Positions 140-55,600 of a DNA stretch of 64,000 nucleotides are shown one piece after another. Source of the stretch: Tubiluchus corallicola (lineage: Eukaryota; Priapulida; Priapulimorpha; Priapulimorphida; Tubiluchidae). The translations under genes were made by a program, and so were the position numbers. The notes below the pieces were generated by a model. That model made no database searches, was not told where the DNA came from, and saw only the letters and a program-made list of their open reading frames with translations. The DNA lies in the NCBI GenBank assembly GCA_030141605.1, contig JAQGDQ010001008.1:1-64000 (forward strand). The letters run 5' to 3'. Position 1 is the first letter of the stretch. Every line of letters starts with the position of its first letter.

Positions 140-1126
140 GTAGGTAACTTGCGCTTTTGTGAGTTTTATGAAATTCTAAAGTGCGGTAAGTCCTCGATTA
201 ACGACTCCCCCGTTTGGCGACGTTTCGTTTTAATGACGCTGAATATTTAACACCTTTCCTCACTTAACGACGCACTGTTTCATTTTCACGACGCTGGATA
301 TTTAGCACCTTTCCTCACTTAACGACGCACCGTTTCGTTTTAACGACACTGGATATTTAACACCTTTCCTCACTTAACGACGCACCGTTTCGTTTTAACG
401 ACACTGGATATTTAGCACCTTTCCTCACTTAACGACGCACCGTTTCGTTTTAACGACACTGAATATTTAACACCTTTCCTCGCTTAACGACGCACCGTTT
501 CGTTTTAACGACACTGAATATTTAGCACCTTTCCTCACTTAACGACGCACCGTTTCGTTTTAACGACACTGAATATTTAACACCTTTCCTCGCTTAATGA
601 TGCACCGTTTCATTTTAACGACGCTGATTATTTAACACCTTTTTCTCGCTCTCATATAGACTTTATAATAGTTGTAAAATTGTAGTATAAAATCTCTTGT
701 TTCATTACAGATGAGACTGGAAGAAAGATCCGTGGTCGAGGTACCAGGCCTGACAACTACGACATGTATTGTGAGTATGGCTTCGTAAACTCTTTATTCG
801 TAATCACTCTAGCAAACCTCGTTGCATTGTTTATGTCGTATGCGATGTAACATGTGTGACATGGATTGTGAGTATGGCTTCGTAAACTCTTTATATGTAA
901 TCACTCTGACAACCTAGTTGCATTGTTTATGTCGTATGCGATGTAACATGTGTTATGTTCACTGAAGTATCTTAAATTAACGGCTGTTGATGACTGCTAA
1001 GATTGAAAAGACTACAGTCACTAAGAATGGACTGTGCCAAAATGGTGCTATGTTACGTATGGGGCCCCTTAAGTTACATATTCACAGGAAAATCTTTTGC
1101 ACTGTGGTTTATACTTGTTGTTGTTT

Positions 1127-1173
<47 letters not shown>

Positions 1174-4100
1174 GCTGTTGCTGATGTTGTTGCTGCTGCT
1201 GTTGCTGTTGTTGTTGTTGTTGTTACTGCTGTTGCTGCTGCTGCTGCTTTTGTTGTTGTTGTTGTTGTTGTTGTTCCTGTTGCTGCTGCTGGTGCTGTTG
1301 TTGTTGTTTTTGTTGTTGTTGTTGTTGTTGTTCCTGTTGCTGCTGTTGGTGCTGTTGTTGTTGTTTTTGTTGTTGTTGTTTTTATTGTTGTTGTTGCTGT
1401 TGCTGTTGCTGTTGCTGCTATTTATGCTGTTGCTGCTGCTGTTGCTGTGTTGTTGTTGTTGCTGTGTTGTTGTTGTTGCTGTTGGCTTTCTCTCTCATTT
1501 AAGCAGGGAATGCATTCACATCTGATACATCTTATTGCTCATTCACTCATCTTAGAGGATTGATACTTAGCAAAGTACTGGTCCTGCCAACACTAAATAG
1601 GCTAATGTGTTACAGTGTACATTTATGAGGAATATTGTTGTCAATTTCAGGGTATGATTACTATAAGAAGTACATCCCTCAGCCGGTGCGGATAAAACAC
1701 GGCTCAGTGTATGATGATTACGAAGTACTCGAAGAATTAGGAGTGTACGTATTCGTTAATTGCCTACTATTAATTTAAACTAACTTTAGTGAAATTCTCA
1801 ATGAACGTTCTACGTCGTAATTTGTAGTGTGAGTGACAGTACTTTTTCTACCTGGGCTCAGACATGTCTGCATGACCGCATGCGCACAACAGCTAAACAT
1901 CGCGTTGCTGGAGCGCCCTGTGCTGTGCTGTGAAGCAAACAGTACTACCCTCACCTGCTCTGGTTCCGTACAAGTATAAAGAAAGAACTAAAGAAAAAGA
2001 CTTACTATATCTAATATTATCGAGAATATTGAGTGAAAATAGGGGGCGCTGTAGTTAAAGCTTGATCCATTCACTGTAAGCACGTGACAACAATTGTTTC
2101 ACTTTCTCTTTAAAACTAGCCAGATTCTATTGTTTCACTTTCTAAAACTACCAGTGATTCTGATTGTTTCACTTTCTCTGTAAAACTAGCCAGTGATTCT
2201 GATTGTTTCACTTTCTCTGTAAAACTAGCCAGTGATTCTGATTGTTTCACTTACTCTTTAAAACTAGCCAGTGATTCTGATTGTTTCACTTTCTCTGTAA
2301 AACTAGCCAGTGATTCTGATTGTTTCACTTTCTCTGTAAAACTAGCCAGTGATTCTGATTGTTTCACTTTCTCTGTAAAACTAGCCAGTGATTCTGATTG
2401 TTTCACTTTCTCTTTAAAACTAGCCAGTGATTCTGATTGTTTCACTTTCTCTGTAAAACTAGCCAGTGATTCTGATTGTTTCACTTTCTCTGTAAAACTA
2501 GCCAGTGATTCTGATTGTTTCACTTTCTCTTTAAAACTAGCCAGTGATTCTGATTGTTTCACTTTCTCTTTAAAACTAGCCAGTGATTCTGATTGTTTCA
2601 CTTTCTCTGTAAAACTAGCCAGTGATTCTGATTGTTTCACTTTCTCTTTAAAACTAGCCAGTGATTCTGATTGTTTCACTTTCTCTTTAAAACTAGCCAG
2701 TGATTCTGATTGTTTCACTTTCTCTGTAAAACTAGCCCGTGATTCTGATTGTTTCACTTTCTCTGTAAAACTAGCCAGTGATTCTGATTGTTTCACTTAC
2801 TCTTTAAAACTAGCCAGTGATTCTGATTGTTTCACTTTCTCTGTAAAACTAGCCAGTGATTCTGATTGTTTCACTTTCTCTGTAAAACTAGCCAGTGATT
2901 CTGATTGTTTCACTTACTCTTTAAAACTAGCCAGTGATTCTGATTGTTTCACTTTCTCTGTAAAACTAGCCAGTGATTCTGATTGTTTCACTTTCTCTGT
3001 AAAACTAGCCAGTGATTCTGATTGTTTCACTTTCTCTGTAAAACTAGCCAGTGATTCTGATTGTTTCACTTTCTCTGTAAAACTAGCCAGTGATTCTGAT
3101 TGTTTCACTTTCTCTGTAAAACTAGCCAGTGATTCTGATTGTTTCACTTTCTCTGTAAAACTAGCCAGTGATTCTGATTGTTTCACTTTCTCTTTAAAAC
3201 TAGCCAGTGATTCTGATTGTTTCACTTTCTCTTAAAACTAGCCAGTGATTCTGATTGTTTCACTTTCTTTAAAACTAGCCAGTGATTCTGATTGTTTCAC
3301 TTTCTCTTTAAAACTAGCCAGTGATTCTGATTGTTTCACTTTCTCTTTAAAACTAGCCAGTGATTCTGATTGTTTCACTTTCTCTTTAAAACTAGCCAGT
3401 GATTCTGATTGTTTCACTTTCTCTTTAAAACTAGCCAGTGATTCTGATTGTTTCACTTTCTCTTTAAAACTAGCCAGTGATTCTGATTGTTTCACTTTCT
3501 CTTTAAAACTAGCCAGTGATTCTGATTGTTTCACTTTCTCTTAAAACTAGCCAGTGATTCTGATTGTTTCACTTTCTGTAAAACTAGCCAGATTCTGATT
3601 GTTTCACTTTCTTTAAAACTAGCCAGTGATTCTGATTGTTTCACTTTCTCTTTAAAACTAGCCAGTGATTCTGATTGTTTCACTTTCTCTTTAAAACTAG
3701 CCAGTGATTCTGATTGTTTCACTTTCTCTTTAAAACTAGCCAGTGATTCTGATTGTTTCACTTTCTCTTTAAAACTAGCCAGTGATTCTGATTGTTTCAC
3801 TTTCTCTTTAAAACTAGCCAGTGATTCTGATTGTTTCACTTTCTCTTTAAAACTAGCCAGTGATTCTGATTGTTTCACTTTCTCTTTAAAACTAGCCAGT
3901 GATTCTGATTGTTTCACTTTCTCTTTAAAACTAGCCAGTGATTCTGATTGTTTCACTTTCTCTTTAAAACTAGCCAGTGATTCTGATTGTTTCACTTTCT
4001 CTTTAAAACTAGCCAGTGATTCTGATTGTTTCACTTTCTCTTTAAAACTAGCCAGTGATTCTGATTGTTTCACTTTCTCTTTAAAACTAGCCAGTGATTC

Positions 4101-7100
4101 TGATTGTTTCACTTTCTCTTTAAAACTAGCCAGTGATTCTGATTGTTTCACTTTCTCTTTAAAACTAGCCAGTGATTCTGATTGTTTCACTTTCTCTTTA
4201 AAACTAGCCAGTGATTCTGATTGTTTCACTTTCTCTTTAAAACTAGCCAGTGATTCTGATTGTTTCACTTTCTCTTTAAAACTAGCCAGTGATTCTGATT
4301 GTTTCACTTTCTCTTTAAAACTAGCCAGTGATTCTGATTGTTTCACTTTCTCTTTAAAACTAGCCAGTGATTCTGATTGTTTCACTTTCTCTTTAAAACT
4401 AGCCAGTGATTCTGATTGTTTCACTTTCTCTTTAAAACTAGCCAGTGATTCTGATTGTTTCACTTTCTCTTTAAAACTAGCCAGTGATTCTGATTGTTTC
4501 ACTTTCTCTTTAAAACTAGCCAGTGATTCTGATTGTTTCACTTTCTCTTTAAAACTAGCCAGTGATTCTGATTGTTTCACTTTCTCTGTAAAACTAGCCA
4601 GTGATTCTGATTGTTTCACTTTCTCTTTAAAACTAGCCAGTGATTCTGATTGTTTCACTTTCTCTGTAAAACTAGCCAGTGATTCTGATTGTTTCACTTT
4701 CTCTTTAAAACTAGCCAGTGATTCTGATTGTTTGACAACAGATGGGAGGGCGTTTCATTCGCATATTCACTTTTTTTTACAGTGGAGCGTTCGGAGTCGT
4801 GCATCGGTGCGTGGAAAAGGCAACCGGAAACATGTTCGCCGGCAAGTTCATCAACACCATGAACCCGTCGGAGAAAGCCACGATCCGGAACGAGATCGAC
4901 ATCATGAATCATCTCCATCATCCACGATTGCTGCATCTTCACGACGCGTACGAGGCTCCTGACGAGATGTGCATGATCATGGAATTGTAAGCAGTGGTTT
5001 CTTTCTTAATGCACTGTAGCAAGATTAATTACTTTGCAGTATCTTAATGATTTTTGTAACAGATGAGTAAATCTTGGGTGATTTTCATTCTCTACCAGAA
5101 AGCGAATTCGAATCGAACCGAATTTCAGCGTTTAAATAGAATTCGAATTGAGTTTGAACAATTTTCGAACAATTTTTCGAACCTCTAGTAAAAAGTGGTC
5201 TTACAAAGATTGTGCATATTGCTTGATTTTGTCTTGCGATCACTTATCGAACCGAATTTCAGTATTTAATTAGAATTCGAACCGAGTTTGAACGATTTTC
5301 AAACAATTTTTCGAACCTCTAGTAAAAAGTGGTCTTACAAAGATTGTGCATATTGCTTGATTTTGTCTTGCGGTTACCTGTCCGAGAGCAGATCGTCTAA
5401 ATGCTCAGTTTGCAGTATTCGATAGACTAACTGCTCAGTTTGCAGTATTCGATAGACTAGCTGCTCACATCTTTATGGAAACTTTTCAGCTTATCGGGCG
5501 GAGAACTATTCGAGCGGATCACCGCGGAGGGGTACAGAATGACGGAAGCGGAAGCCATCAACTACATGCGTCAGATCTGCGAAGGACTGAAGGACATGCA
5601 CGAGAAGAACATCGTTCACCTGGACATCAAACCCGAGAACGTCATGGCGACGACGAAGCGGAGCTCCGACGTGAAGCTGATCGACTTCGGTCTGTCCGCC
5701 AAACTCGATCCGAACAAACCCGTGATGGTGACCACCGGAACGGCCGAATTTGCAGCTCCGGAGATAGTGGACAGGGAGCCGGTTGGCTTCTATACGGACA
5801 TGTGGGCTGTCGGCGTTCTGGCTTATGTAATGTGAGTATGTGTGAATGGTTTCAAATTACTGATGTCATGATTGTCAGTACAGTCAACCCTCGTTAAACC
5901 GGACTAATTGGGGGTGGGGGGTGGTCCTGTTTACCCGATTGTCCGATTTATCCGATATGCCTATATATGGTCTATATTATACAGGCATAATCACCTTAAT
6001 AAGGCCTATATACATTGCACTATATACTATACTGTATATTACTTTAAAATGGTTAACCTGTGAGGATAAAGAAATTATTGTACAGTTGGTAGGCCGTTTT
6101 GTGTTTAGTGCTCCGGCTCGGACGGAAACTGGTCAGTTTCCTTTACCACGGATGACGTCCGTCTTATCCGATATCCTGGCTAACGGGGTCCGGTTTAACG
6201 AGGGTCGACCGTATTTCACTTAGAGTTGCATTTATATTTTAATTTAGTGTAGAAGGCTAGCAGTGTCACTAGGCAGCTGTTTAAAGGAAAAAACTGACTG
6301 GACATCATCTTAAATTATGCCTGAAAACTATCTACCCTACTGCAAGGAGCATACATTAAGACCTCGCTCTACGACGTTAGTGCGTTTCCACAAAATGCGA
6401 CGTTGAGCAAAACGCCGTGTCGTTAAGCGAGGACTTACCGTACTATTTTCCAAGAACGACTTGCGTGAGAGAATTATTACCACAGAAATGTAATTTCGCA
6501 TTTGCACGGCTAGTTCTGCACTGCTACATGCATTTCGCCATTTGCTAGTTAGACGGACACTAGTCAACTCGTTGCACGATAAGCAGATGCCGTATCTCTC
6601 GCTTCAGAGGTGTTCAGTTGTGACGTAGCGCAAACGTTCGAGAGCTCGCGTGTGAGGCCGTGAGCACAGTGATAAACTTGAAATTTGCATTTTAAGCGTA
6701 AAAGTGTGGGTGATATGATGCATTTGTGTGGAAGAACTGTTTCTTTGTTTTAATGTGTTTATTCACTTTTTTTTAAATTGACAAGCAATGATTGTGCAAA
6801 GTTAGTTTGGAGATTGATTTTGGGAATGCTTGAGGTCACTATTTAATGAATTAAAGTCAATTTTTATACATTTATATATATATAATATATGATAATGTAT
6901 ATATCAATTTATATATGATAATATATATATATATATTAGCAGCATAAAGAAAATGCCATATGTTGTTGCCTGTCTATTGTCCAACCAATTTTAAACAAGT
7001 TTTTCTATTCGCCGCTCTCTCGTTTTCCATTTTCAACTTCGACTTTTTTGTTGTTGTTTAGTTTAAGCGGCTTGTCGCCATTCGCCGCTCTCTCATTTTC

Positions 7101-9206
7101 CATTTTCAACTTCGACTTTTTTGTTGTTGTTTAGTTTAGCGGCTTGTCGCCATTGTCCAACCGATTTTAAACAAGTTTTCCATTTTCAACTTCGACTTTT
7201 TTGTTGTTGTTTAGTTTAAGCGGCTTGTCGCCATTGTCCAACCGATTTTAAACAAGTTTTCCATTTTCAACTTCGACTTTTTTGTTGTTGTTTAGTTTGA
7301 GCGGCTTGTCGCCGTTCGCCGGAGACAACGACGTGGAAACGCTGAAGAACGTGAAGCGTTGTGATTGGATATTCGAACCAAATGCTTTCAAGGGCATTTC
7401 AGACGAAGCCAAAGATTTCATCAAGAACCTTCTGGTCAGGGAACGAACGTAAGTCGACCGTGTGTCATCCGGAAGATTCGGTACAGAGTTTTGTTAGATG
7501 GGGTTTTAATAGACAACAAAAGGAGGAGAAAAAATCATCTTAATAAATTATACTACTTTATAGCAATTTTATGCGTATATCTTACTCGCGTTGAAAGGAA
7601 TTTTAGTTTGTTTTCATTTTAAATCTCCCGCAATGCTGTTCCGAAGTCGCCATTACATGACGTCATACACGCACAACGTAAATCAGGGGAAGAAAAGGCA
7701 ATGTTAAATTATGACCTAAAAAACTTTCCGTGCAAATCTATATTACTTTGCATTACGCTTACCTGCTGGAAAGACTTAAATAACTAGACTAATAATTTAA
7801 AATGTTTGTGTCAATTGGTAAAATGTCGCTAACTCATACTCCAGGGTGCACCACTCAGTAACCAAAAACGTATTTTTAATCTTATTGACAAGATACAGTA
7901 AGTTAAAATTTTACTTAATTAGCAACGTGTGCGCTATGAATGTTCTGATTATTTTTTCAAACTTTACTCAGTGTTATCAAAACTTGTTTCAAACAACCAA
8001 CTGTCAAAATGGCTGCGTCTAACGGTCATCGTGGAACTTTTTTAAACAATTTTTCAGGTCTTCCGCAAGATTGAATAAGATTTTTTTTTTATCACGTTTT
8101 TTTTCTTGTCAATACCATTTCCCTGTTTAGGCCAAAATTATCCTCCATATTTTTGGATTAAATATCTTAATACAGTTACAGTTTTTTGATACAGTCGAGC
8201 CTTGTTATGTACAGAAAGCCTTCACCATTTCGTTCATGTTCCAAAGTCGTTTATTCTAAAGAGAATAATAAAGAGAACATTAACAAGTAAGAAAACGAAT
8301 AAAATGATAAACAGAAGCTTAATAATTACGAAGAAGTCAACTTATTGGCAAAAGTACTTTCTCAAATTTCAGAGATCGAATTCATAAACTTAATTAAATT
8401 ATTTAAATTCGTGTAACTCACATCGTTGGCTCTTCGTCAAGATTTAAAATTTCTCAAGGTACAAAATTTGGTTATAACTAAACGCTGTTATTAACTATAA
8501 CACAATAACGACAAAAACATTGCTGTGAATAAAAACACGACCACCATTGTTCTCCTCCTCACTTGTAGAGGGCAGCACCTTCCAATAAATAGGTGTCGTT
8601 ATGCATATTGCAGTTACAAGCCTCATTAAAATGTCAAACTCGCCGTAACGACAAATTTATTGCATCTGCATCATTTATACGGTTTGAATGATTAATACAA
8701 GGCTTGCATTTTCACCTAGGAAACGTATGACGGTTCACGAGTGTTTGGATCACCCGTGGTTGAAGGGTGATCTGCAACACTACGACACGAAGATTCCCAA
8801 TGAAAGATACCACGGCATTAGGAACAAGATTCGCGAGAAATACGTGAGTCACTCTGCGTACTTTGCACAGCAAAGCTTCAGTACTGAACTGATGTTTTAA
8901 AATTTAGAGAGATGTGATATTTATGATTTGAGAGCTGAGCTTGTCAATTATACATGTTGTTAAGTGAGATAAGTGCTGTATGTATTCTGAATTCAGCTTT
9001 TGTAGCCATGTTTATGTACAGGAATTGTGTTTTTCTCAGCCTTTATAAAAACATTCGAACGGAAGTGGTGCGGACAAGCCACTTGCATAGCAGTGTCTAG
9101 TTTTTCTGCTGGGTTACTGCTGTGTTTAACTGTCTTGAGAACGGATTTATTTAATTATAGAGTTCTGCCTGTGTAGTGTCTACAATAACGCGTATATGAT
9201 AATGAT

Positions 9207-9237
<31 letters not shown>

Positions 9238-10070
9238 CAATGCCGGTGACAGTGATGATGATCATGTTGACATTGACGACGATGATGAAAATGACAACCG
9301 CGGCAACGATGATGATGATGATGACGACTACCGTGATGATGATGATGATGATGACAACGGCAATGACTATGATGATGATGATGATGATAACGACGAAGAT
9401 GATGATGATAATGATGAAAACAACTGACATCGTTTACACTTACATTTTTTCAAGTCTTAATAAACAATTCTTATTTTTTAGGCAACATGGCCGACTCCAA
9501 TGCCTGCGATTGGACGCTTGGCTAACTACAGTTCTCTACGGAAGCATCGGCCTCAGGAATATCAGATGTACGAGTCTTCATTCGGTGAGTACAACATGGG
9601 AAATCTTTTCTATTTGAGTGAGAAACATGTGAAATCTTTTCTATTTGAGTGAAACATGGGAAATCTTTTCTATTTGAGTGAAACATGGGAAATCTTTTCT
9701 ATTTGAGTGAAACATGGGAAATCTTTTCTATTTGAGTGAAACATGGGAAATCTGTTCTATTTGAGTGGAAACATGGGAAATCTTTTCTATTTGAGTGGAA
9801 ACATGGGAAATCTTTTCTATTTGAGTGAAACATGGGAAATCTTTTCCATTTGAGTGGAAACATGGGAAATCTTTTCTATTTGAGTGAAACATGGGAAATC
9901 TTTTAAGCAATTTAATGGGGTACTCTAAACAAGTAATTACTTCTTGAGTACCCCACGGGTCATTTGCAGCTTGGCATCTTGTGTACATAATAATAAATAT
10001 GTTGTTAAATACTTTTATGTACAATGCTGCAATGATCGTTGTGGAAATATTTAATAAATAATAAATAATA

Positions 10071-10101
<31 letters not shown>

Positions 10102-10228
10102 CAATTATAATTTATTAATTAATTATATCTTGCCGAGTTCTTTGCTAGTAGAAAGAGCAAATTTGTAATTATTGTGTCAATTCACAGTAAATCATTCAAA
10201 AAAATTGATTTTCAGAAAAATTAGTGTA

Positions 10229-10318
<90 letters not shown>

Positions 10319-13300
10319 GAGTTTGCGAATTAATTAATTACAGAAAATAGCGTAATTAGTCTTCATTTACTTCAACCTAAATAATTTTAATTATTAAAAA
10401 TTAATTGTTATTTTAATTATTATTATTATTAATAATCGAAATTCTTAGAAATGTTGAAATGGTCGGAGAGCTGACGTGATTTAATGAAGACAAGTGGCTA
10501 TGTGGTCCCAGCATTTGAGTTGTACTCTGAAAGTCGTGTGTTCAAATCGCGCTCAGTTCTCATCTTTTTCATCTCTTTGTAAGGCAGTTCTAGTTTCAAA
10601 GTTTTTCTACCTATAATTGTTGACCGACAGTCTCGAGACTGAGATGATGATGATGATGATGACGATGAAGATGACGATGAGGGTGACGACAACGGCAATG
10701 ACGATGATGATGATGATGATGATAACGATGACAATGCCGATGATGAAAACGACAATTATCTCAGGTGATACATTCTCTGATTCCAGATCGCCGAGAGGCT
10801 GCACCGAGGTTTGTGGTGCGCCCGTACAGCACCATGGCTATAGAGGGGCGCAGCGCCAAGTTTGACTGCACCATAATTGCACCGTCTCCACCCGTCGTTA
10901 CCTGGTACGTGTCCTAGCAAGTCAAAGAAATGATTTATTTATTATTTAATTATTTAACATATTTTATATCCATTTTTTCATACTAGCTGAAGAGGTTTTG
11001 CTAATTACAGTCAAAACTCGTTAAACCGGACCCCGTTAGTCCGGATATCGGATAAGACGGACGTCATCCGTGGTAAAGGAAACTGACCGATTTCCCCCCG
11101 AGCCGGAGCGCTAAACACAACACGGCCTACCAACTGTACAATAATTTCTTTATCCTCACAGGTTAACTATTTTAAAGTAATATACAGTATAGTATATAGT
11201 GCAATGTATATAGGCAATTATTCCTGTATAATATAGACCATATATAGGCATATCGGTTAAATCAGACAATCGGCTAAACCGGACCCCCCCACATTAGTCC
11301 GGTTTAACGAGGGTTGACTGTATTGTCCTCTATAGTATATTAAGTATAGGGAATACTGCCATCTGCCAACATATCTGCTGCTGTGACAAAAATCTATTTT
11401 ACATAATAAATTTACCTCATTATAACACCAGCCAAGATGTAAAGTACAATGAAAAGCAGCCACGGGGTTGTAAAAATCAAGGATCTCCGATAAGAAAACT
11501 GTTATGATTCTTAAATTAAGATTTAGGTTTCGTACTGAAGTGACGGTACAAAAGTGAATGTTGAGGTTTTGAGCAAGGAACGTGCATTTTGAGACTACGA
11601 GAATTGCACAGCAAAGCTTCAGTACTGAACTGATGTTTTAAAATTTAGAGAGATGTGATATTTATGATTCAGGTGTTTAATGTAGTCATTTGTAGAAATC
11701 ATGGCCAAAACTACATTAAATATTACTAATGTATTGATGAACTAGTGCAGAATTTGCAAAGTTTAGATTTTATTGGCAATAATAGAGATAAAACAGACGA
11801 CTAATCTTTTTCATGGTGTTGTTGTTGTTGTTGGCATCCTTCTGTCTCGGAAGACAATGGAGTGTGCGCCAAGAGAGTCAGTCATTGATCACATTGATGG
11901 AGCTGCAGCGTCGACTGTGGCTGAGCAGTCCGATCCTTGAACGTCTCCAGGGCGCACGCCTGGGCAAGGTGTATGGAGATCCTGAGTTGCCCAGACAACA
12001 GGAACCCCCTCTCTTCCTCCCTGGTGTAGTCCAAAGGAAAGCGGAGCGATACGTTTGGCACCAGGTTGGCTGCAGGAGCTGCCGGAGTCAGTGAGCATGC
12101 TGCACTGGTCCGCCTTCAGGGCTCCACTCCTGATTTAGGTTTACTCCTCTACACATGGCCATTGGGTCACTTGACCTCCTCCGCCCTCTAGCCGTTGGCT
12201 GCTTGTGCAGCTCCTCCGCCTAGTGTCGAGATACAGTGTGGGCATCCTGCAAGCCTACAGCACCTGGTATTCCTAGGCGGTTACCCATCCAAGCACTAAC
12301 CAGGCTCTATGTTGCTTAACTTCGGCAATCAGATGAGAACCGGTGTTTTCAACGTGATTTGTTACCATGGTTACCATGGTGTATATACTAGATTATGGCC
12401 TAGTCTGTATTGTGTAGACGTCTTGCTATTTTGACTGGGGGGGGGGTATCGTACGATGTTATTCCATGTTAACTTCAAATGTGAATCTTACACATTATTG
12501 AGGAACGTCTCTGTATTATTTATAATGAACTGTTTGGTGCAATAAACTACGTTTAAAATAAATAGATCTGTAATTTTCACCTTCATTCAACTGTAATTAA
12601 CCTTTGCTTTACCTGTCAGGTACCACGAAGGTGATCAGCTCACGCAGTCTGCTAAATACATGCAGAAGTACTTCGGTCGCGATTATAAGCTGATCGTTAA
12701 CAGATGCAAGATGGAGGATGCGGGAGAGTACATCGTCTCCGCTGCCAACTCGTTTGGAACAAGAGAACAGACGGTTCATCTTAAAGTAGAAAGTACGTAG
12801 ATCTATGGTTCTCATCCAATGTCATATCTATGGTTTTCTTCCAATGTTAGTGCTATAGTTTTCTTGCCTTGTTAGATCTATGGTTCTCATCCAATGTCAT
12901 ATCTATGGTTTTCCTCTAATGTTACATTTATGGTTTTCTTCCAATGTTAGATCTATGGTTTTCTTCCAATGTTAGATCTATGGTTTTCTTCCAATATTAA
13001 TGCTATAGTTTTCTTCCAATGTAATGTTAGATCTGAGGTTTTGTTCCTATGCTAGATCTATGGTTTTCTTCCAATGTTAGATCTATGGTTTTCTTCCAAT
13101 GTTAGATCTATGGTTTTCTTCCAATGTTAGATCTTTGAGGGTGTTACATTTTAGGAAAAAATTTCCTCGGAAAATGTGTATATTCTTTCATATTCATGTA
13201 TAGGGCACATTTTACAACACACCACAGACAGTTACCGAAAGCAGCTTTTATATAAGTGCCACATAACGAACAGGTGCAATGTATCACACAACAAGCAGCT

Positions 13301-16300
13301 GCACATCCAGCTTAAAAATAAGCTCTATGCAAATAATTAATCATAATCACACAGAAACTAGGTTACCAGTGTTTCTAATACACCACAAGTAATTGTTTCA
13401 TCTGCTCATTACATAAACAACCATAAATTCATAATAGAGATGGGCGGGGCAGAACTACCGGTCTAGGGCATCGTAAAGTGTTGATACGCCCATGTCCAGT
13501 TGAGCCGATTGTGGCCGCAAGTCAATGACCACCCGTAGTTCTTCATTTTCTGTTATTCCTAACTTTGATTGATCATTATAAGATAAAAGTACAACATTTG
13601 AACTTTGTGCCGCAGTTTTTACAACGTCTCTTCATCTGTTGATATAGAAATACCCGAGGTTCATCAGCTTCCATTCCGCAGTTTGTCACCGACGCGACGA
13701 AGGCGGTGGGACCTGCGCTACGAGCACTGGGGTCTGCCGGAGGACAGAGCGCCCCGCTTCGACTTCCCGCTCCGTTCCCGGTTCATCCAGGAAGGATTTG
13801 GCGTCAAGCTGTCGGCGTGCATCAGCGGGAGGCCGGCGCCGTCGGTAAGAAAGTTTGATGCTTTAGATAATGAAGAGATTTGATGGTGTGGTTTTGAACA
13901 ATTTGAGTGACTGAAGTTTTGTTAACATCCCAGCTGCTGCTTGTATACAGCTTTTATATAAGTGCCACATAACGAACAGGTGCAAGGTATTACACAACAA
14001 TTAGCTGCACATCCTGCTTAAAAATAAGAGCTACACTTATATCTCAGTTTGCCGGACCTAGCTTTTACGGATATCGGACAAAATCTTGACCGTTAAAAAG
14101 TCCCGTATACTACGGACGCAGTCCATTGTTTCGGGAGCTGACCGCTAGTTGGCAGGCTGTCTCTTTGTTTACATCACGTACATCAGTGTGAACATATGTA
14201 TATCTACATATATAAAAATATATGCGGAGTTATTTGAGTCAACTGTCAACAGTTTTTACAAACTTTTGCATAAGAGCCGCCGGTTCTAAACTTTTTCGTG
14301 ACAATTAGGTGATTGACTCTGCATCACCGTGAGTCTAATACACAGCACCTACTGTATTAGTTTAGTATCGGCAAATACGGACAATCGGCAAATTCGAACC
14401 GACGTCTCTCCGCTTTTGTCAGGCAGACCGAGACATGAGTGTATTTCTATCCAGTTGGCTGCTTCTTGCTGTACTTAATGCTTCGTTAATAGAATAACCG
14501 CTTCAGCTTTTTTAATGCTTTTCAATGCTTTCTGGGAGTGCTGTGCGATTTACGCGACAAAACTCATGCTTTTTACTAAATAACACCGTATCAGCACCTT
14601 TTCCGTAGTTTAAGTGTTAAAGGTATGACTCGCTGACCGACACCAACTGATTATGTAGATAATTCTGATAACGTTTGTTCTTTATTATTAATGTTTGCTG
14701 TGCATTAATGAATGTGTTTGTCTTTTTTCTCTCTAACCAACTTACTTCCGGGGCCGGAACAAACAGGAGAGAAACGTAAGTAGTTCTTAACTTCATTTGC
14801 TTAAGTTTTTTCTAGCGTATTTCATAGTTACGAATTAAAACGAGTGTTCGATGCTTAGGTGTTACATGATAGGGTTTTGTGCATGTAGTAACATTGCAAT
14901 TAATAGTAACAGCCTTGCCCTTTGCTGTGCCGCTTAACTGGGCGATGAAGCTAAAGTCGAATTACACGGTTCCCACGGTCGGAGAAAATCCTGGAAGATG
15001 CTTGAAAATACAGGCTATCCTGGGAAGTCATGGAAAAATCAGGGAAAAAGATAATTTGGTAAAAAGTCGGGGAAGATGATGAAAAAGGGGCGATGAAGAA
15101 TTGTTTTTACGTTTCTCCGTTTTTCTTTGTTAAATTTCTCTGGTTTAAGAAGTCTTGAAGACAATGATAAGCCTTTTCACAGTTTCGTTGTGCACAGCCG
15201 TCATGTAACATGCGTGTAAAGCAAAGCCGTCTGCCGCACCAGTTAAGTGTACCACAGCAACGCGTCTTAACTACCACCGTCACGTTACATGTGTGTAAGG
15301 CAAAGCCGTCTGCCGCACCAGTTAAGTAACTTCAGCCGTTTTACATGGACTTTACTCAACTATGCATTAGTCTGTGCGTAGAGTGATTTACTAGCAGGAT
15401 CTTCTTTGGGAACAAGAAAAAATGAACTAGGTAAGGTTCTAGCTAGCTGTTAAAACAGTTACTATTACAATAGCATTAGCTGCGAGGCGTTGTCAAGTGT
15501 ACACAAATGCGTTGCCTGGTACGCTTAACCTTTGACCTTTCACGCTCATCATCAATCACTGGAACTGTGAAAAGGCTTATCATTCGAAACGAGTCGACAA
15601 TAAAGTTCTATTTTTATTTTTGCCAAATATGAAAAACTCTATTTTTGTTACTGTGTGATTTTCTTACGTTGATCCTGTGATATTCTAGTTTCTGTCATTA
15701 GCCATTTTGTCATTAGCCATGTTAGCCATTTTACTAATCAATTGCTTTCACAGGTGCAATGGTACAAAGACAATCATCCGCTCGCAAACGACGCTCATTA
15801 CAAGATCACATACGTGGCCGGCATGGCCGAACTTCAGATAAACAAGACGGACATGCAGGACGCTGGCCGATACAGCATCGTGGCAACAAACAAGATCGGC
15901 GAAGCCCAGTGCGAATGCCGGCTGTCGATTAATCGTAAGTTGTGATTGGTTTTTACATACAGCAAAATTTCTATAAGATTTATGCAAAAACAAATTATTT
16001 TAGTGGCTTGTAGTTAATTCAAACATGAACAGAAAAACTGAATAACTTAAACAAAAAGCAAGTAAGTTAGCTCAACAATCTATGTATTCATGTGCTGCCA
16101 TCTATTTACAGCAAGAGAAGACAGGACTCCACGAACATGGAGGCGATTTACCAGCAGCTTACCCCTAGATCAGGTGATCCGCGTGGAAGAGGAATCGTCC
16201 ACGACAACCATTGATCGGGGCGAGGGTTACTCGAGGGTCACCAGAAAATATGCCTCCTCTTCGGACACTAGAACAACTATTGTACCCGAACGTACGTGTG

Positions 16301-19300
16301 ATTAGTAACAGGTTTAATGTCGAGGGTAACCCGAACGTGCGTGTGATTAGTAACAGGTTTAATGTCGAGGGTAACTCGAACGTACGTGTGATTAGTAACA
16401 ATTTTAATGTCGAGGGTAGCCCGAACGTACGTGTGATTAGTAACAATTTTAATGTCGAGGGTAGCCCGAACGTACGTGTGATTAGTAACAATTTTAATGT
16501 CGAGGGTAACCGGAACGTACGTGTGATTAGTAACAATTTTAATGTCGAGGGTAACCGGAACGTACGTGTGATTAGTAACAATTTTAATGTCGAGGGTAAC
16601 CCGAACGTACGTGCGATTAGTAACAATTTTAATGTCGAGGGTAGCCCGAACGTACGTGTGATTAGTAACAGGTTTAATGTCGAGGGTAACCCGAACGTAC
16701 GTGTGATTAGTAACAATTTTAATGTCGAGGGTAGCCCGAACGTACGTGTGATTAGTAACAATTTTAATGTCGAGGGTAACCGGAACGTACGTGTGATTAG
16801 TAACAATTTTAATGTCGAGGGTAACCGGAACGTACGTGTGATTAGTAACAATTTTAATGTCGAGGGTAACCCGAACGTACGTGCGATTAGTAACAATTTT
16901 AATGTCGAGGGTAACCGGAACGTACGTGCGATTAGTAACAATTTTAATGTCGAGGGTAACCCGAACGTACGTGCGATTAGTAACAATTTTAATGTCGAGG
17001 GTAACCCGAACGCGCGTGCGATTAGTAACAATTTTAATGTCGAGGGTAACCCGAACGTACGTGTGATTAGTAACGATTTTAATGTCGAGGGTAACCCGAA
17101 CGTACGTGCGATTAGTAACAATTTTAATGTCGAGAGTAACTGATTTATTTTGATCATTCAGTTAAATCGTTTGGATTAAAGGAAAACATTACCTGATTTT
17201 AGACCCTGATCCATGGTATATAGTATTGTTTTTTAAGAATGACTTACGTGAAAGCATTATTACCTTGGAAGATTTTTCATTGTTGCATTGTATCATTCTT
17301 AGTTTTTCATTGTTGCAACCATTTTCAGCCATTTGTACTAACAATGGCAGCAGCACCTGCTTCGCAGACTGTACTTCGTCAGGAAAATGCATCTCCGCCT
17401 CGACATCAGGACAACCTGCTGAAATTATGCGTTAACGTAAAAATGTTAACTTGTCACGTGAATTTAAAATTTGGCAAATGTTTGTGTTACGTTATCAATA
17501 TCACAGAGACGCGCTGTACGATGGAGTATTTTATGTTTTGGTTTTGCAAATGTGTGTGATGGAACATTTCTTCCCAGCTTGCCGGTGCTGCTACCTACAC
17601 ACACCAGCATTTTATTATATTATCAAGCTGTTACTTAACTACATAAGTTATTATTAGTAAAAGATGTATGCTTTAGTCACATAGGTCTAAGTGAATATGA
17701 TCTAAAAACCTGTCCTGTTTTCCTTTAATTACAGTCAAACCTCGGGTATAAGGTACTCGCTTATCGCTTATCAGGGATATTCGCTTATAAGTGACCACCA
17801 ACACCGGTCCCGATTTTTCGTAACGTTTTTTCTATGTAAAAATCTTCGATATAAGGAACGATATCTTCAGGTCCCACGTAATAGAAGCCCAGGTAAATTA
17901 CCTCGCTTATAAGGGACCTTATGATCAAAGCGAAATTGATCGATTTTTAACCTCAAGTTTTCGCAAACTCGGCCTGCGAACAGCTCGGTTTCCGTGGTTA
18001 CATACATCTCGCAACACTGAAGGAGCTTCCTACATACCGTTTGCACTGAATGTGTAGCAATAATCCATAAAAATATGGGTAAAAGTACAGAAAAGTACAG
18101 GTCTAGATACGCCCTCGGTCTGACTCAACTTCGGCTATAAGAGACATCGGATATAAGGGTAGGTTTTTTTCCAGTCCCTAGGTGTCCCTTATATCCGACG
18201 TTGACTGTATTTAAATGAGTTTAGCAACGAAGCCAGAAATCTTGTGAGCTTCATTGCTGTATAGACGCCGTGCACTACTGAAAATTACTAACAAGAATCG
18301 CTAATCAATTATATTTATATTTTATATAAAATTTTACAGCAAGGAAGCCCGGCGTGAGAACTCCGGCGTTTACAGAAAAGTTATTCAGACAGACGGTTCG
18401 AGAAGGCGAAGCCGTATTATTCACTTGCACCTGCGTAGGATACCCAGAACCTACCGTAGAATGGTTTAAAGATGGCCAGGTGAGCACGTCCGTACACGTG
18501 TTTATGATGCAAGATTGTTTTGTAGATTTTAGCAAGAATTTATTACGGATTAAGAAGCGAAATATTAAGCCTTGCGAGAAGAAACTTTAATTTTCTGTAT
18601 TTCATGCAGTTTAGATTTTGACAATTACATAAAGAATAACAAATTATGTAGTGAAAAACGATTTTCTTATGTTATAAAAGGCCAAGTACACAACACTGTT
18701 AAACGATGTGACAGTAGAGCTACCAATGTCTTATGTACTGCAGTTCAGTTCGTGTGAAGTTCAATAATTATTTACACACTCTCCGTCTAGTATTCAGTTA
18801 TCTTCATCTGCAGTCCTGGGGAAAATAATGGTGGGGGGGGGGTGCGACTTGTAAGACAAGAGAATTTTCCCGGTCAACAAGTCGGCATAGTTAAAACTAC
18901 GTTATTATGATTCAATTTGGTCTAAACTTAATTTCTTGGTGTTTTTTTTATATTGAGAAACGCTCAATATATTTTGGACTTTTATATTCTAGCATCAAAT
19001 TATCAGGAAAATATTCAAAAAATACTAAAAATTTTATTTTACTACCCCCGTACCCATTTTCCTATCTAGAAACTAGTACTGCAATTGTAAAAAACTTGTA
19101 TTTTCAAACTCTGACAGTAACTCATGGAAGCTGTCATTTTGCTTCGGGTTTTTTCTGTTGCCAAGACCAGGTCTTCGTCAGGAAGAGCCATCTGCTGGAT
19201 TTAAACATAACTTCAATGTGTTCTTGCAAAGTTCGTAGCAACCAACATTTGTTGTACGGTTACTAAGTGTTTTGTAGAAACGTGACAAAAAACATTGGCT

Positions 19301-19974: not shown

Positions 19975-21780
19975 GTACGCTTCCATTAGGGAAGGTTATG
20001 ATTCTACTTCAGCTAGATTGATCGTTAAAGGTACGCTTCCAGTAGGGAAGGTTATGATTCTACTTCAGCTAGATTGATCGTTAAAGGTACGCTTCCATTA
20101 GACAAGGTTACGATTCTACTTCAGCTAGATTGATCGTTAAAGGTACGCTTTCATTAGGGAAGGTTATGATTCTACTTCAGCTAGATTGATCGTTAAAGGT
20201 ACGCTTTCATTAGGGAAGGTTATGATTCTACTTCAGCTAGACTGATCGTTAAAGGTATGCTTCCATTAGACAAGGTTATGATTCTACTTCAGCTAGATTG
20301 ATCGTTAAAGGTACGCTTCCATTAGGGAAGGTTATGATTCTACTTCAGCTAGATTGATCGTTAAAGGTACGCTTCCATTAGGGAAGGTTATGATTCTACT
20401 TCAGCTAGATTGATCGTTAAAGGTACGCTTTCATTAGGGAAGGTTATGATTCTACTTCAGCTAGATTGATCGTTAAAGGTACGCTTCCAGTAGGGAAGGT
20501 TATGATTCTACTTCAGCTAGATTGATCGTTAAAGGTACGCTTTCATTAGGGAAGGTTATGATTCTACTTCAGCTAGATTGATCGTTAAAGGTATGCTTCC
20601 AGTAGGGAAGGTTATGATTCTACTTCAGCTAGATTGATCGTTAAAGGTACGCTTCCAGTAGGGAAGGTTATGATTCTACTTCAGCTAGATTGATCGTTAA
20701 AGGTACGCTTCCATTAGGGAAGGTTATGATTCTACTTCAGCTAGATTGACCGTTAAAGGTACGCTTCCATTAGGGAAGGTTATGATTCTACTTCAGCTAG
20801 ATTGACCGTTAAAGGTATGCTTTCATTAGGGAAGGTTATGATTCTACTTCAGCTAGATTGATCGTTAAAGGTACGCTTCCATTAGGGAAGGTTATCATTC
20901 TACTTCAGCTAGATTGATCGTTAAAGGTACGCTTCCATTAGGGAAGGTTATGATTCTACTTCAGCTAGATTGATCGTTAAAGGTACGCTTCCATTAGGGA
21001 AGGTTATGATTCTTCTTCAGCTAGATTGATCGTTAAAGGTACACTTCCATTAGGGAAGGTTATGATTCTACTTCAGCTAGATTGATCGTTAAAGGTACGC
21101 TTCCAGTAGGGAAGGTTATGATTCTACTTCAGCTAGATTGACCGTTAAAGGTACGCTTCCATTAGGGAAGGTTATGATTCTACTTCAGCTAGATTGACCG
21201 TTAAAGGTATGCTTTCATTAGGGAAGGTTATGATTCTACTTCAGCTAGATTGATCGTTAAAGGTATGCTTCCATTAGGGAAGGTTATGATTCTACTTCAG
21301 CTAGATTGATCGTTAAAGGTATGCTTCCATTAGGGAAGGTTATGTTTCTACTTCAGCTAGATTGATCGTTAAAGGTACGCTTCCATTAGGGAAGGTTATC
21401 ATTCTACTTCAGCTAGATTGATCGTTAAAGGTACGCTTCCATTAGGGAAGGTTATGATTCTACTTCAGCTAGATTGATCGTTAAAGGTACGCTTTCATTA
21501 GGGAAGGTTATGATTCTACTTCAGCTAGATTGATCGTTAAAGGTACACTTCCATTAGGGAAGGTTATGATTCTACTTCAGCTAGATTGATCGTTAAAGGT
21601 ACGCTTCCAGTAGGGAAGGTTATGATTCTACTTCAGCTAGATTGATCGTTAAAGGTACGCTTCCAGTAGGGAAGGTTATGATTCTACTTCAGCTAGATTG
21701 ATCGTTAAAGGTACGCTTCCATTAGGGAAGGTTATGATTCTACTTCAGCTAGATTGATCGTTAAAGGTACACTTCCATTA
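19935..21780 (+). repeat. 56-bp minisatellite made of the exon-15 end plus donor, about 33 copies
   Basis: Unit: the last 40 nt of exon 15 (gggaaggttatgattctact, tcagctagattgatcgttaaag) followed by gtacgcttccatta. Exon 15 itself is the first unit. Copies differ by point changes (gtacgc/gtatgc, ccatta/ccagta/tcatta). Almost every copy keeps a complete donor AAAG|GTAYGC. Confidence 0.97.
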
Positions 21781-21817
21781 CGTGCAATTTCATTTAAATT
21801 TAAAAATTAGCTAAATA

Positions 21818-22428: not shown

Positions 22429-22475
22429 TAATCGCTCGACGTTCATCAGTACTATGATTCCCTCAGTTGCTGTAG

Positions 22476-23690: not shown

Positions 23691-23694
23691 TTGG

Positions 23695-40000: not shown

Positions 40001-43000
40001 CCAATTTAACAGCTAACTTAACTTTGTACTTCACAGTAGTTAATAAATTACAAGAACTTTGTGCTTATATATGTATCAAGTAAAATCACAATTCAAATGA
40101 AAATGTCTACAACCACTTGACTTCTTAATCAGTTAAGTGCTAATACAATATGCACAACATTTAAACTTGTGAACAGGAAAACATAAGTAACTTGCAGTTA
40201 ATAGTCAAACCTTTTTGGTGGCTTTGACACACGGCCACTTCTAGTAGTAACTACTTTTTCTTCTGGTAATTCTTTGCGGTTAGGACTTCTGGACTTCACA
40301 TTCTGAGGAACTTTCATTTCTTCAGCAACATGATTTCCATTAGACTTCTCTTCTAAATTATCAGGTGAAACATCTGGTATAGGTAAATTTTGATTATTTA
40401 TCCGAGGTATGTAAGTAGCTTTAGGAAGTTTATACTGAATCAATTGGCTTCTAGTTGGATAGGAACTAAGATGTTGTTTTCCTTCCCTGTTAGCTTGGTA
40501 AGTAGATAAATGTAGGAATTTCCGATTTCGCCGATACTTCTTGCCTTTATACTCCACAATATAAGACCTTGGAGTATTATGATGTGCTATAACTGTAGCC
40601 GGAAGCCACTGGTTATTATTAGCTCCAGGAAAGGGAGCCATGCGTACAGGATCTCCAGGAACTAAAACTGGTAAGTCCTGGCTAGCTTTCTCGTCATAGT
40701 AGAACTGTTGTCTGTTCTTTTCTTCTTCAAATTTTCTTTGAATATCTCTCACATCATAGATCTGAGGTTTTAGCAATTCAACTGATGTGGGTATTTTAGT
40801 TCTCAGCCTCCTAGACATTAGTAGTTGAGACGGAGACAAACCACAGCTTAAAGGTGTAGTACGGTAATCAAGCAGAGCATACTGTTTATCCTCGCATTTC
40901 TTCCATAACCTTTTGACAATTTGCACTCCTCTTTCTGACTGTCCATTTGACTGAGGATACATTGGCGAAGAAGTCACATGTCTGATACCATACTCTTCAC
41001 AAAACTTATCAAACTCATCAGAACTATACTGTGGTCTATTATCTGTTTTTATGACTTCAGGTATTCCATGTCTGCAAATCTGATTCTTCAGCTTATCAAT
41101 AACACACGAGCTAGTCATGTCTTCCAACTGATCTACTTCAATGTATTTTGAATAATAATCCATGGTAACAATGTAGTGCTTTTTCTCCCATTCATACAAA
41201 TCAGACGCTAACTCCATCCATGGAGCTTCTGGAGTCTTAGTTGCACATATGGGCTCTTTTGTTTGATTGTTTTGATATGTGTTGCATAAATCACAGTCAC
41301 CAATCAATTCTTCAATTTGTGCCGACATGCCTGGCCAAAACAACAAATCACGTGCTTTCTTTTTACACTTCACAATTCCCATGTGAGTATTGTGCACTTG
41401 ATGCAACATGTTTTTTCTCATGCTTGGCGGAACTACAATACCTTGACCTTTGTAGACCATACCATCGTACACAGCAAGACTATCTCTGTCTTTCCAAAAA
41501 GGTCTAACTAAATGTGGAACTTCTTTACAAGTGTCTGGCCAACCATTTAATATCATTTTGTACAACTCATATAATTCATTTGCTGTTGTCTCCTGAAACT
41601 GTTTGTATCTGTCTGGTGCCACTGATATGTGCTGTACCATATTAACATACACAGTTTCTATTTCTGGAGCTACATCTGATAAGTTAGCACGACTTAGCAT
41701 ATCACCTATCACTACTTCTTTGCCTGGTTTGTACATCATTTTAATATCGTACGGCTGTAATTTCAGTAGCATAGATTGTAGTCTCATAGGTGCTGATGAT
41801 AATGGCTTGCAAAAAATAGTTTGCAATGGTTTATGATCATTTTCTACACTGATCTCTCTACCAAAAATGTAGTAGTGAAATTTGCTACAACAATGCACAA
41901 TGGACAGCATTTCTTTCTCAATCTGTGCATATCTTTGTTCTCCTTCACTCATCGTTCTAGATGTGTAGGCCACAGGTTGACCGTCTTGCAGCAGAACACC
42001 TCCAACTGCATAACTACTTACATCACATTGGATCACATGCTGCTTTTTGGGATCATACAGTGCCAACACTGGAGATTTACATGCCAGATCTTTGAGTTTC
42101 TGGAAACTTTCCATTTGAGGTTTGTCCCAGTGAAACAGAGTTTTGTCTCTAATTAGTTCCCTTAGTGGTGCATTTATTTCACTTAGTTTAGGAATAAATT
42201 TTCCTAGATACTGCATAAAACCTAGAAATCGTCGTACATCTTCCTTGCATGTGGGTGCAGGCATTTCTTGTACTGCTCTAACTTTACCTGGATCTGCTTT
42301 TACTCCTGTAGCACCAACCACATGACCGACATACTTAACTTCAGCTTTTCTATACTGGCATTTATCAAAATTTAATTTTAGATTCCATTCCACATTGCTC
42401 GATTCACTAGTTTTTTCATAGTTTGGTCATGATGTTCATTGTCTATACCAGCTACTATGACATCATCCATGATTGCACGTGCTCCATCAATATCTTCAAC
42501 CATTTTATCCATAATTCTTTGATAAATTTCCGGTGCTGACTTTATACTGAAAGGAAGCTTCAGCCATCTATATCTTCCTAATGGTGTATCATTGTGGTCA
42601 AAAGACTGGATTCATAATCCAAAGGAATTTGGAGATAGCCCGACTTTGCATCCACAACAGAGAATACTTTTGCATCGGGCATTGAAGATACTACTTCCTC
42701 TACAGTAGGAATTGGGTAATTTTCCCTTTGAATGGCTTTATTCAGATCTGAAGGATTAAGACAAATGCGAACTTTGTCATTCTTCACCACTGCTTGCATG
42801 GAACTTACCCAGTCAGTTGGCTGTGTGACTTTGGCAATATGTCCTTCTTTTTCCATTTCCTTCAGTACTTCTTTAATTTTTGGCAGTAAGTGTGCAGAAT
42901 ATCTCCTTGGACCATGCACAACAGGTTTACAATTAGGATCTATCTTTAGTGAATAAGTACCTGGTAAAGTTCCAGTAGTTTTTGTTAGTTCAGGAAACTT

Positions 43001-51500: not shown

Positions 51501-51503
51501 TTA

Positions 51504-52374: not shown

Positions 52375-52492
52375 AGAATGAAACCTATGAAAACTCAATT
52401 GATTCATGCTGGTAGCAAACTTTTCCGGCCCTCTAGTGTTAAACTGTGACAAAAATCTAACCTGACTGACTGACTGACTGAGTGACTCACCT

Positions 52493-52628
52493 TCATAAAA
52501 AGCCCCAGGCTTCTAATGCTTTAACTACGAAATCTTCATGGCTAGTGAGTATGTCGTTATCATATGTTTTACAGGAATGCGTGCGGCCATGGTACAGGTC
52601 CCCGTCCAGCCACAAGCCAAACTGACCC
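52493..52628 (-). CDS. TLDc gene last exon (E)
   Basis: Encodes [20 protein letters not shown], then [20 protein letters not shown] and WGFL, then TGA. This is the conserved TLDc C-terminus. The acceptor and first ~40 nt are duplicated upstream at 52679-52745. Confidence 0.95.
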
Positions 52629-55600
52629 CTGAAACAAAGTTTTCATACAGTTCAGCACAAACATGATGGTTGGCAGGACAGGAACATAGGTCACCGTCCA
52701 GCCACAAGCCAAACTGACCCCTGAAACAAAGTTTTAATACAGTTCAGTACTATGATACTCAGTGGCAGCATAAACATGTGGTTGGCAGGACAGGAACATA
52801 GTTCACGGTCAAGGATAACCTTCTAACTTGCAGCATATAACGGGAGGAGATGTCACCCTGGGATGCATATCCTCAAAGAGATAAATCAGAAGCAGTTTTC
52901 TCAACAGTCACCCATCCATTTACAAAGCTAGGCCAGCATGGCTCAACTGCGGTCACTAAACACACTCACTATCATCATTTCAAGGCTTCGCCGCATAATT
53001 TAACGGCAGTACCATCATGTAAGAAATTGTTCTGTACTATTCGTCGTTGTTTTTGCCTCCCTCCAGCAAAATGTTATGTACCACCCTGTACAATAGCTCA
53101 TGTTAAGATATACATTGATGCTTAAACAACAAAATCAGTGCAGAAGCTTCAACTGAAAGCTTAAAATGGTTCAAAGTACAAATAAATGCACAATGTTCAA
53201 AGGCAATTAAGTCTGTTCATTACTACGATTGACACACGATGTGTAATGAGGACAAGTAAAGTACAAAGGTACTTACTCTCCAGCACATTAATGATAAAGT
53301 ACAAAAGTACTTACTCTCCAGTGCATTAACGATAAAGTGCAAAAGTACTTACTCTCCAGCACATTAACGATAAAGTACAAAAAGTACTTACTCTCCAGCA
53401 CATCAACTATAAAGTACAAAAGTACTTACTCTCCAGCACATTAACAATAAAGTACAAAAGTACTTACTCTCCAGCACATCAACTATAAAGTACAAAAAGT
53501 ACTTACTCTCCAGCACATCAACTATAAAGTACAAAAGTACTTACTCTCCAGCGCATTAACAATAAAGTACAAAAAGTACTTACTCTCCAGCACATTAACT
53601 ATAAAGTACAAAAGTACTTACTCTCCAACACATTAAAAATAAAGTACAAAAGTACTTACTCTCCAGCACATTAACGATAAAGTACAAAAGTACTTACTCG
53701 CCAGCACATTAACGATAAAGTACAAAAGTACTTACTCTCCAGCACATTAACGATAAAGTACAAAAGTACTTACTCTCCAGCACATTAACGATAAAGTACA
53801 AAAGTACTTACTCTCCAGCACATTAACAATAAAGTACAAAAGTACTTACTCTCCAGCACATTAACAATAAAGTACAAAAGTACTTACTCTCCAGCACATT
53901 AACGATAAAGTACAAAAGTACTTACTCTCCAGCACATTAACAATAAAGTACAAAAGTACTTACTCTCCAGCACATTAACAATAAAGTACAAAAGTACTTA
54001 CTCTCCAGCGCCTATACATAAACTGTCTTTATTGCCCTTAAGGAAGAAGGCATTATCCCCGGTCCATCCGAACGTTTTGAACTCCGGATAAAAGGTAAAC
54101 AACAACGATTCTCCGGTGCCGTAGAAATGATCACTAAGTTTCAATGCGCACGAAGTTATAGCACCAAATACCTGAAAAAGGCAATTAGTTTAGTACTAAG
54201 ATGGATTTAGTACTATGGGCAAAAAGCTAGGTACATCGTAGGTGTTTACAGGTATTAAAAACACATTAAACATAATTATTATTTGTGCTTCCATAGCAAA
54301 ATCGGTAATTAAGCTTTTCTAGTTATTCACATATCCTAAATCTCCATTTCATGAGGATCATTTTGATACCAAGTTCATCTCTCTATGTTATTTCTAAGCT
54401 CAGATAATCCACATTGAAGTTGAGGTGCAGGCTGCACACTGAAAAACATAATCTTGAGAAAATCATTGTTAAAGTTAGCCATTGTTTTTTGTCACGTTTC
54501 TACAAAACACTTAGCAACCGCACAAATGTTGGTTGCTACGGACTTTTGGTTGCTACAACACATTGAAGTTACATTTAAATCCAGTAGATGGCTCTTCCTA
54601 ATGCTTGGCAACAGAAAAAAAACACATAATTAACTTGCTGGCCAATGAGAAATTTCACTTTCACACATAATATTCACTAGTTTTCTTACAATGAGAAATT
54701 TGCAGGCAAAAATAGCTAATGGATCTATTAAGAGGAATTCTTAAACTTTACAATGTTTAAGAATGTTTATTCTGATCACATTTTTGTGCTGAGATCTTTT
54801 GTGGGTTTGTGCATTTTCAGAAAATTTACCAACTCTTTTAAGCTAATGCATTCAACGAGATTCAATTCACTGTACAGTCAACCCTCGTTAAACCGGACCC
54901 CGTTAGTCCGGATATCGGATAAGACGGACGTCATCCGTGGTAAAGGAAACTGACCGATTTTCGTCCGAGCCGGAGCGCTAAACACAACATGGCCTATCAA
55001 CTGTACAATAATTTCTTTATCCTCACAGGTTAACTATTTTAAAGTAATATACAGTATAGTATATAGTGCAATGTATATAGGCCTTATTAAGGTGATTATT
55101 CCTGTATAGTATAAACCATATATAGGCATATCGGATAAATCGGACAATCGGCTAAACCGGACCACCCCCCCATTAGTCCGGTTTAACGAGGGTTGACTGT
55201 ATTGTACTGTATATTACTCAATGTACATCATATTATCTTGACGATACTCATTCAATTCAATAAGTGAAACATTTTTCATAAGTATCCGCGGATTTTTCTC
55301 AGAGACACTCATACCTCGGTTTTTGAACGTCTCCGTACTCGTACAAATCGGTTTTCGACCAGAAAATTCCAGTTGAAATTGTCTCCGCTCTCGACCAGAA
55401 TTTCGGTACTCAACCAACCTCATGGGATGAACGCATGCGTGGCGAGCCGAGTAGAGCCGAGCGTAACCGACCGCGCCCGAGAGTAGTCACGCACAACATT
55501 TGAATCGCCTAACATCGCTAAGTGCTTTCTACGCTTATTTTTCTCTGCTTTTCCATGCAGGAATAATTATGTTTTTCTTTCTGAGCAATTCTATTATGTT

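Follow-up and report, generated by a model that had tools for sequence, protein, structure and literature searches.

Tandem copies of DNA that straddle exon-intron junctions are a real feature of two predicted genes, a twitchin-type gene on the plus strand and a TLDc-domain gene on the minus strand, within the window analysed here, which comprises the first 64,000 bases of the 70,927-base contig C967 (in an animal genome assembly of 343.5 Mb). The first-pass annotation had reported at least eight arrays or duplications that contain or begin at a boundary, and had named eight junctions. An array containing or touching a boundary was indeed found at eight of the 19 exons identified, but only six of the duplications contain the boundary. 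These six range from 2 to 33 copies and lie at four donors (twitchin exons E2, E13, and E15, and TLDc exon D) and two acceptors (twitchin exon E6 and TLDc exon E). The outer splice site is intact, and in every one of the six cases the splice site that keeps the reading frame is the copy on the exon side. The arrays are probably "mirages", i.e. ordinary minisatellites founded by a tandem duplication that fell, by chance, across an exon-intron boundary. As such, they look like a mostly neutral by-product of a repeat-rich region and not like a splicing device.

The twitchin-type gene (101..19974, plus strand) is predicted to consist of 15 exons separated by GT-AG introns: E1 to E5 at 101-139, 711-770, 1651-1744, 4783-4986, and 5490-5831; E6 to E10 at 7296-7448, 8720-8843, 9482-9584, 10787-10904, and 12620-12792; and E11 to E15 at 13648-13844, 15754-15934, 16112-16291, 18340-18479, and 19818-19974. 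Joining all 15 exons results in a single open frame of 754 codons, and the best PDB match to the kinase exon is twitchin 1kob (E 1e-53), presumably the Aplysia twitchin entry. The exons were reproduced by spliced protein-to-DNA alignment, using an aligner written for this analysis and reference proteins that were typed in, with the exception of the E13 array, where a spurious break was placed between array copies. Because the aligner was misled at this array, the practical consequence of junction arrays is mainly a warning for gene finders.

Within this gene, the E2 donor duplication (761..953, plus strand) consists of two copies of 97 and 96 bp (761-857 and 858-953), the first of which includes the last 10 exon bases and a GTGAGT donor; it was missed by TRF but seen by local alignment. 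The E6 acceptor array (7007..7313, plus strand) is made up of 73/81-bp repeats in four copies, which carry the acceptor tract TTTGTTGTTGTTTAG (pyrimidine tract and AG) followed by the start of exon E6. AG is present in four copies, and the real acceptor is the last of them (exon start 7296). Two further arrays are at donors: the E13 array (16284..17140, plus strand) contains 19 copies of a 45-bp unit in which the final 8 exon bases are followed by a GTACGT donor, and the E15 array (19933..21780, plus strand) contains 33 copies of a 56-bp unit in which a GTACGC donor follows the final 42 exon bases. It had also been stated that the copies combine exon bases with the splice signal. This is accurate for the six spanning cases, but not for the arrays at the E8 and E10 donors, which merely abut the junction and begin, according to TRF, at intron base +2 (E8; 9586..9904, plus strand, 29-bp unit) and intron base +6 (E10; 12798..13134, plus strand, 25-bp unit). 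Neither unit contains a good donor, as the best scores within them (0.4 for E8 and 4.4 for E10) are below 4.53, the 10th percentile of 116 true donors.

The TLDc-domain gene (52499..57758, minus strand) is a prediction in which four exons were found, at 57758-57708 (weakly supported), 56956-56804, 54171-54002, and 52628-52499. Its exon D donor array (53257..54009, minus strand) has a 38-bp unit, comprising the exon end GCTGGAGA and the donor GTAAGT, in about 20 copies (19.7 according to TRF, with 20 occurrences of GAGTAAGTAC counted). The exon E acceptor duplication (52596..52768, minus strand) consists of two copies that are 92 bp apart, such that there are two exon starts: 52720, the decoy, and 52628, the real one. 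LZTFL1 was considered as a third gene upstream of the TLDc-domain gene and rejected, as the alignment was not credible save for one stretch inside a 74-bp array. This array (61228-62338, minus strand, 15 copies) has a translation that resembles part of LZTFL1, and its whole frame matches PF15294 with E 5e-9, although no single stretch is significant. It could have been seeded from an exon fragment, or the resemblance could be due to chance.

The window is a repeat-extreme outlier. It contains 28 minisatellite arrays detected by TRF, which together occupy 18,627 of the 64,000 bases. Long arrays (at least 4 copies and at least 150 bp, TRF) number 18 in the 64-kb window versus 7 in the 227,842 bases retrieved outside it, a density nine times higher, and two of those seven are on the same contig, C967. 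A genome search with an exon from the window (5461-5835) returned only itself and one 72% relative, and a second haplotype was not found by this search. Other repetitive elements were observed as well. A dispersed satellite of approximately 40-42 bp is present in many places in the genome, and TTAGGTAAGT, which reads like a perfect donor, occurs in many of its units; related units are found in the window at 34665-35619 and 35865-36315, at L004 and L020, and on contigs C17, C38, C92, and C96. Minus-strand open reading frames at 40198-42426, 42578-43147, and 43148-43744 resemble, by eye, pieces of a Gypsy-type retrotransposon, with putative polymerase-integrase and zinc-knuckle parts within 40198-43744. 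Similar stretches at 5880-6220, 11000-11320, and 54890-55190 (GTCAACCCTCGTTAAACCGGACTAA..., in either orientation) also look by eye like a dispersed repeat.

If arrays are placed without regard to splice sites, then a random distribution over introns should account for the number found at junctions. Placement was evaluated by permutation, in which arrays were reduced to a single unit apiece and then assigned random positions over introns, with exon overlap allowed. For the window genes, 35 junctions and 17 arrays were included, arrays with a period of less than 10 were left out, and the intron after E15 was taken to end at 2,500 bp (using 10,000 bp alters the results little). A second, more sensitive array detector was added, because TRF alone misses the E2 duplication. 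In the two window genes, six arrays span a junction versus 2.45 expected (P 0.02), and eight either span a junction or lie within 8 bp of one versus 3.04 expected (P 0.005); all P values for the window are optimistic, since the genes were examined after the effect had been noticed. Arrays are so dense in the window that about 2.5 spanning arrays are already expected by random placement. With TRF only, three arrays span a junction in the twitchin-type gene versus 1.85 expected (P 0.27, or P 0.05 with abutting arrays included), and one does so in 16 myosin genes versus 0.84 expected. The excess at junctions is clearest for high-copy arrays, defined as those with at least 3.5 copies and at least 150 bp: six of the nine in the window are at a junction (1.42 expected, P 0.0004) and five of the nine are at donors (0.75 expected, P 0.0003). 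The E6 array was added to this set by hand because TRF splits it; without it, five of eight are at a junction (P 0.002).

Other genes of the same genome were analysed as a comparison set, consisting of 16 myosin genes and two clathrin heavy chain genes, one of which was represented by its first half only. Introns with a flank score below 15 on either side were dropped, which left 129 of 259 predicted introns (97 of 208 in myosin and 32 of 51 in clathrin genes) and 258 junctions. Only one of 35 intron arrays in these 18 genes spans a junction, versus 1.91 expected, in a sample that is small because arrays are rarer there; this lone array, in the C2185 myosin gene, is at a doubtful exon end. The earlier assertion that junction arrays are too numerous for random placement is therefore moderately supported within the window, but does not extend to these genes. 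One further array, in the clathrin gene on C514, abuts a junction: this 43-bp array starts at intron base +6 according to the more sensitive detector and 50 bp into the intron according to TRF. Additionally, a 36-bp array in the C2144 myosin gene spans a donor-like, weakly supported exon end, and was excluded from the test due to its weak flank (score 8). Judged by TRF edges, none of the five high-copy intron arrays in the 18 genes lies at a junction (0.67 expected), and in the window and other genes pooled, 6 of 14 high-copy arrays are at a junction versus 2.09 expected (P 0.007).

Several characteristics of the comparison genes were noted along the way. The nearest match to a muscle myosin exon is 3jbh, followed by Myosin-7 entries, which are presumably from tarantula and human, respectively. 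COX1, searched for in the same assembly, returned no hit. Contig C917 (G000) carries two myosin copies in opposite orientation, at approximately 20400-24000 and 90600-94300, with mostly identical match scores; these are a candidate inverted segmental duplication or assembly duplicate. The clathrin heavy chain genes are located at G000:C246:476542-492479 and on C514/C1187. The compact copy on C246 has no arrays in 16.8 kb, and the long-intron copy has 8 arrays in the 28 kb examined, with its second half, on C1187, lying outside the set.

Enrichment across the genome, which the first-pass annotation had proposed as a check, was approached using clustered donor octamers, with three exact copies within about 115 bp taken as the mark of an array. 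There were 1381 matches for AGGTAAGT versus 103 for its reverse, TGAATGGA, but these raw totals are inflated by long arrays and by the dispersed 42-bp satellite with TTAGGTAAGT, which supplies many of the matches. For AGGTGAGT there were 554 versus 140 for its reverse (11,153 and 7,065 genome occurrences, respectively). The further controls AAGTGGTA and its reverse had 271 and 303 matches, and the control octamers as a group (103, 140, 271, and 303) disagree widely. Therefore, distinct arrays were counted instead, by eye, among the matches listed (approximately the first 100 of 1381, 103, 554, and 271, and all 92). Among these, AGGTGAGT has 15 distinct arrays in contigs C1-C480, compared to 7 for TGAATGGA and 5 for AAGTGGTA; for TGAATGGA, 22 distinct arrays were counted in all among the matches listed, with 13,452 genome occurrences. 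The difference between AGGTGAGT and TGAATGGA in C1-C480 (15 versus 7, P 0.026) is reduced to 13 versus 7 (P 0.06) when three AGGTGAGT arrays of equal 26-bp spacing are merged. Similarly, in C1-C96 the two donor octamers have 10 arrays versus 2 for two controls (P 0.029), or 8 versus 2 (P 0.07) with related arrays merged and one simple-repeat-like array left out, where the genome count of AAGTGGTA was extrapolated from 11 in 273 kb. Enrichment by this measure is thus borderline. The acceptor octamer TTTTCAGG has 92 matches, corresponding to 10 arrays in the genome, and its reverse has 31 matches. When 30 high-copy units were compared to shuffled units, 10 had a good donor versus 6.5 after shuffling (23 of 300 shuffles reach 10), and without the five arrays at known junctions, 7 of 25 units had a good donor versus 5.5 (86 of 300 shuffles). 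Overall, arrays may have a mild bias towards donors genome-wide, but this is not proved.

How would such arrays arise? If they are mirages, the founding event would be a head-to-tail duplication of a segment straddling the junction. The exon-side copy of the splice site would be left in place, such that the gene would still be able to splice, and normally so, and further copies would then build up within the intron by slippage or unequal exchange. Arrays that break exons would be removed by selection, and those in introns or across junctions would persist as nearly neutral variants, the latter being tolerated because the head-to-tail copy keeps the outer splice site intact. Several junctions would have been struck because the contig is extraordinarily rich in minisatellites. 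Consistent with this, placement in the other genes fits chance and, from copy to copy, splice positions are about as variable as other positions of the unit. In contrast, high-copy arrays are at junctions more often than predicted (6 of 9 in the window, 6 of 14 pooled), and there is a mild genome-wide excess of clustered donor octamers. These observations could instead reflect a mutational bias, whereby new tandem duplications arise more readily at 5' splice sites than elsewhere, e.g. through R-loops or paused polymerase, which predicts that junctions, and donors above all, are over-hit throughout the genome. In favour of such a bias are the five of nine high-copy window arrays at donors, the 15 (13 merged) AGGTGAGT arrays versus 7 for TGAATGGA among the matches listed in C1-C480, the 36-bp array of the C2144 myosin gene, which covers a weakly supported donor, and the 43-bp array at intron base +6 (sensitive detector; 50 bp in by TRF) in the C514 clathrin gene. 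However, spanning arrays in the 18 other genes do not exceed expectation (1 versus 1.91) and none of their five high-copy arrays is at a junction, the octamer contrast weakens to P 0.06 to 0.07 once related arrays are merged and its controls vary widely, units away from known junctions are not clearly richer in donors than shuffled ones (7 versus 5.5), and the acceptor octamer forms only 10 arrays genome-wide. A mutational bias is rather unlikely, and the process repeatedly duplicating junction DNA that was suggested in the first-pass annotation is possible, with low probability. It is also doubtful that a mutational process linked to the exon-intron border makes 5' splice sites the favoured birthplace of high-copy minisatellites in this genome and thereby explains all mirages.

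The second suggestion in that annotation was that the additional copies are selected as decoy splice sites to which U1/U2 particles are held; in a wider form of this idea, they could also tune splicing. GT is retained in nearly all of the copies, namely in 18 of 19 at E13, 33 of 33 at E15, and 11 of the 11 that were followed at TLDc exon D, but the whole unit is about equally conserved. In these three arrays, copies were compared by stepping through the array, with the splice core defined as positions -2 to +5. The core differs in 3 of 133 cells versus 24 of 722 for the rest of the unit at E13 (P 0.79) and in 0 of 77 versus 10 of 341 at TLDc exon D (P 0.22, from 11 of the roughly 20 copies), neither of which is a significant reduction in variability, and at E15 the core is more variable than the rest (9 of 231 versus 29 of 1617, P 0.045). 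Furthermore, two of the eight arrays, those at E8 and E10, are without a good donor. Reading on from exons E2, E13, E15, and TLDc D as far as the first decoy donor meets an in-frame stop in each case, the three decoy acceptors of E6 are followed by a stop before the real exon, and the decoy acceptor of TLDc exon E shifts the frame and leads to a stop after 193 bp. These are the decoys for which the reading frame was followed, and it is therefore unlikely that they are used productively, but stops are common in AT-rich introns, and thus these stops tell only that decoy use would be unproductive. Selection for decoys is highly improbable in light of these comparisons. Mis-assembly, which could make or distort the arrays or their copy numbers, is nearly as improbable. 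The contig is short (70,927 bp) with long near-identical arrays, and an amphioxus mirage was seemingly assembled aberrantly in a genome draft, according to an excerpt of the report (PMC3087553); nevertheless, there are point changes between copies, the two-copy duplications are easily assembled, and the frame is intact. Copy numbers should be read as those of the assembly.

Mirages, which remain the favoured explanation, are not new. According to excerpts of the cited reports, they are present in amphioxus in the globin genes BflGb6 and BflGb9, in Adh3, in PGBD5, and in troponin C (PMC3087553, PMC3902484). Those of the globin genes have units of 10 to 160 bp, occur at 5' and 3' boundaries, contain splice signals in many copies, and vary in length, and RT-PCR suggests that splicing is undisturbed (PMC3087553). 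By comparison of their anatomy, the junction arrays described here can be regarded as this known, amphioxus-type phenomenon: the unit consists of exon and adjacent intron bases at six of the eight named junctions, both kinds of boundary are affected (four donors and two acceptors), and GT or AG signals are present in many copies. They differ in having up to 33 copies, whereas 3 and 6 are quoted for BflGb6, and in that six cases lie on one 71-kb contig, known here from genome sequence alone. A 31-bp VNTR listed at exon 13-intron 13 of the human CBS gene (PMC1395315, citing Lievers 2001) is likewise a tandem repeat listed where exon meets intron in a coding gene, although it is a single human locus, one that the cited title associates with reduced enzyme activity. 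In human segmental duplications, a link has been drawn between new introns and minisatellites at exon-intron boundaries (PMC2812944). These resemble the present arrays in being variable tandem repeats at such boundaries, with cryptic splice sites and possible new introns; there, the repeat may be retained as exon sequence or turn into an intron, whereas no new intron is shown here. In the open-licence literature, as judged from search listings, no report of a genome-wide excess of minisatellites at splice sites was found. The present cases are high-copy examples of mirages in genes for a muscle protein and a TLDc-domain protein, with all six on a single contig. Junction seeding, if proved throughout the genome, would reveal that a mutational process acts at splice sites and would offer a testable path by which new introns could form, of the kind put forward for the amphioxus globins (PMC3087553).
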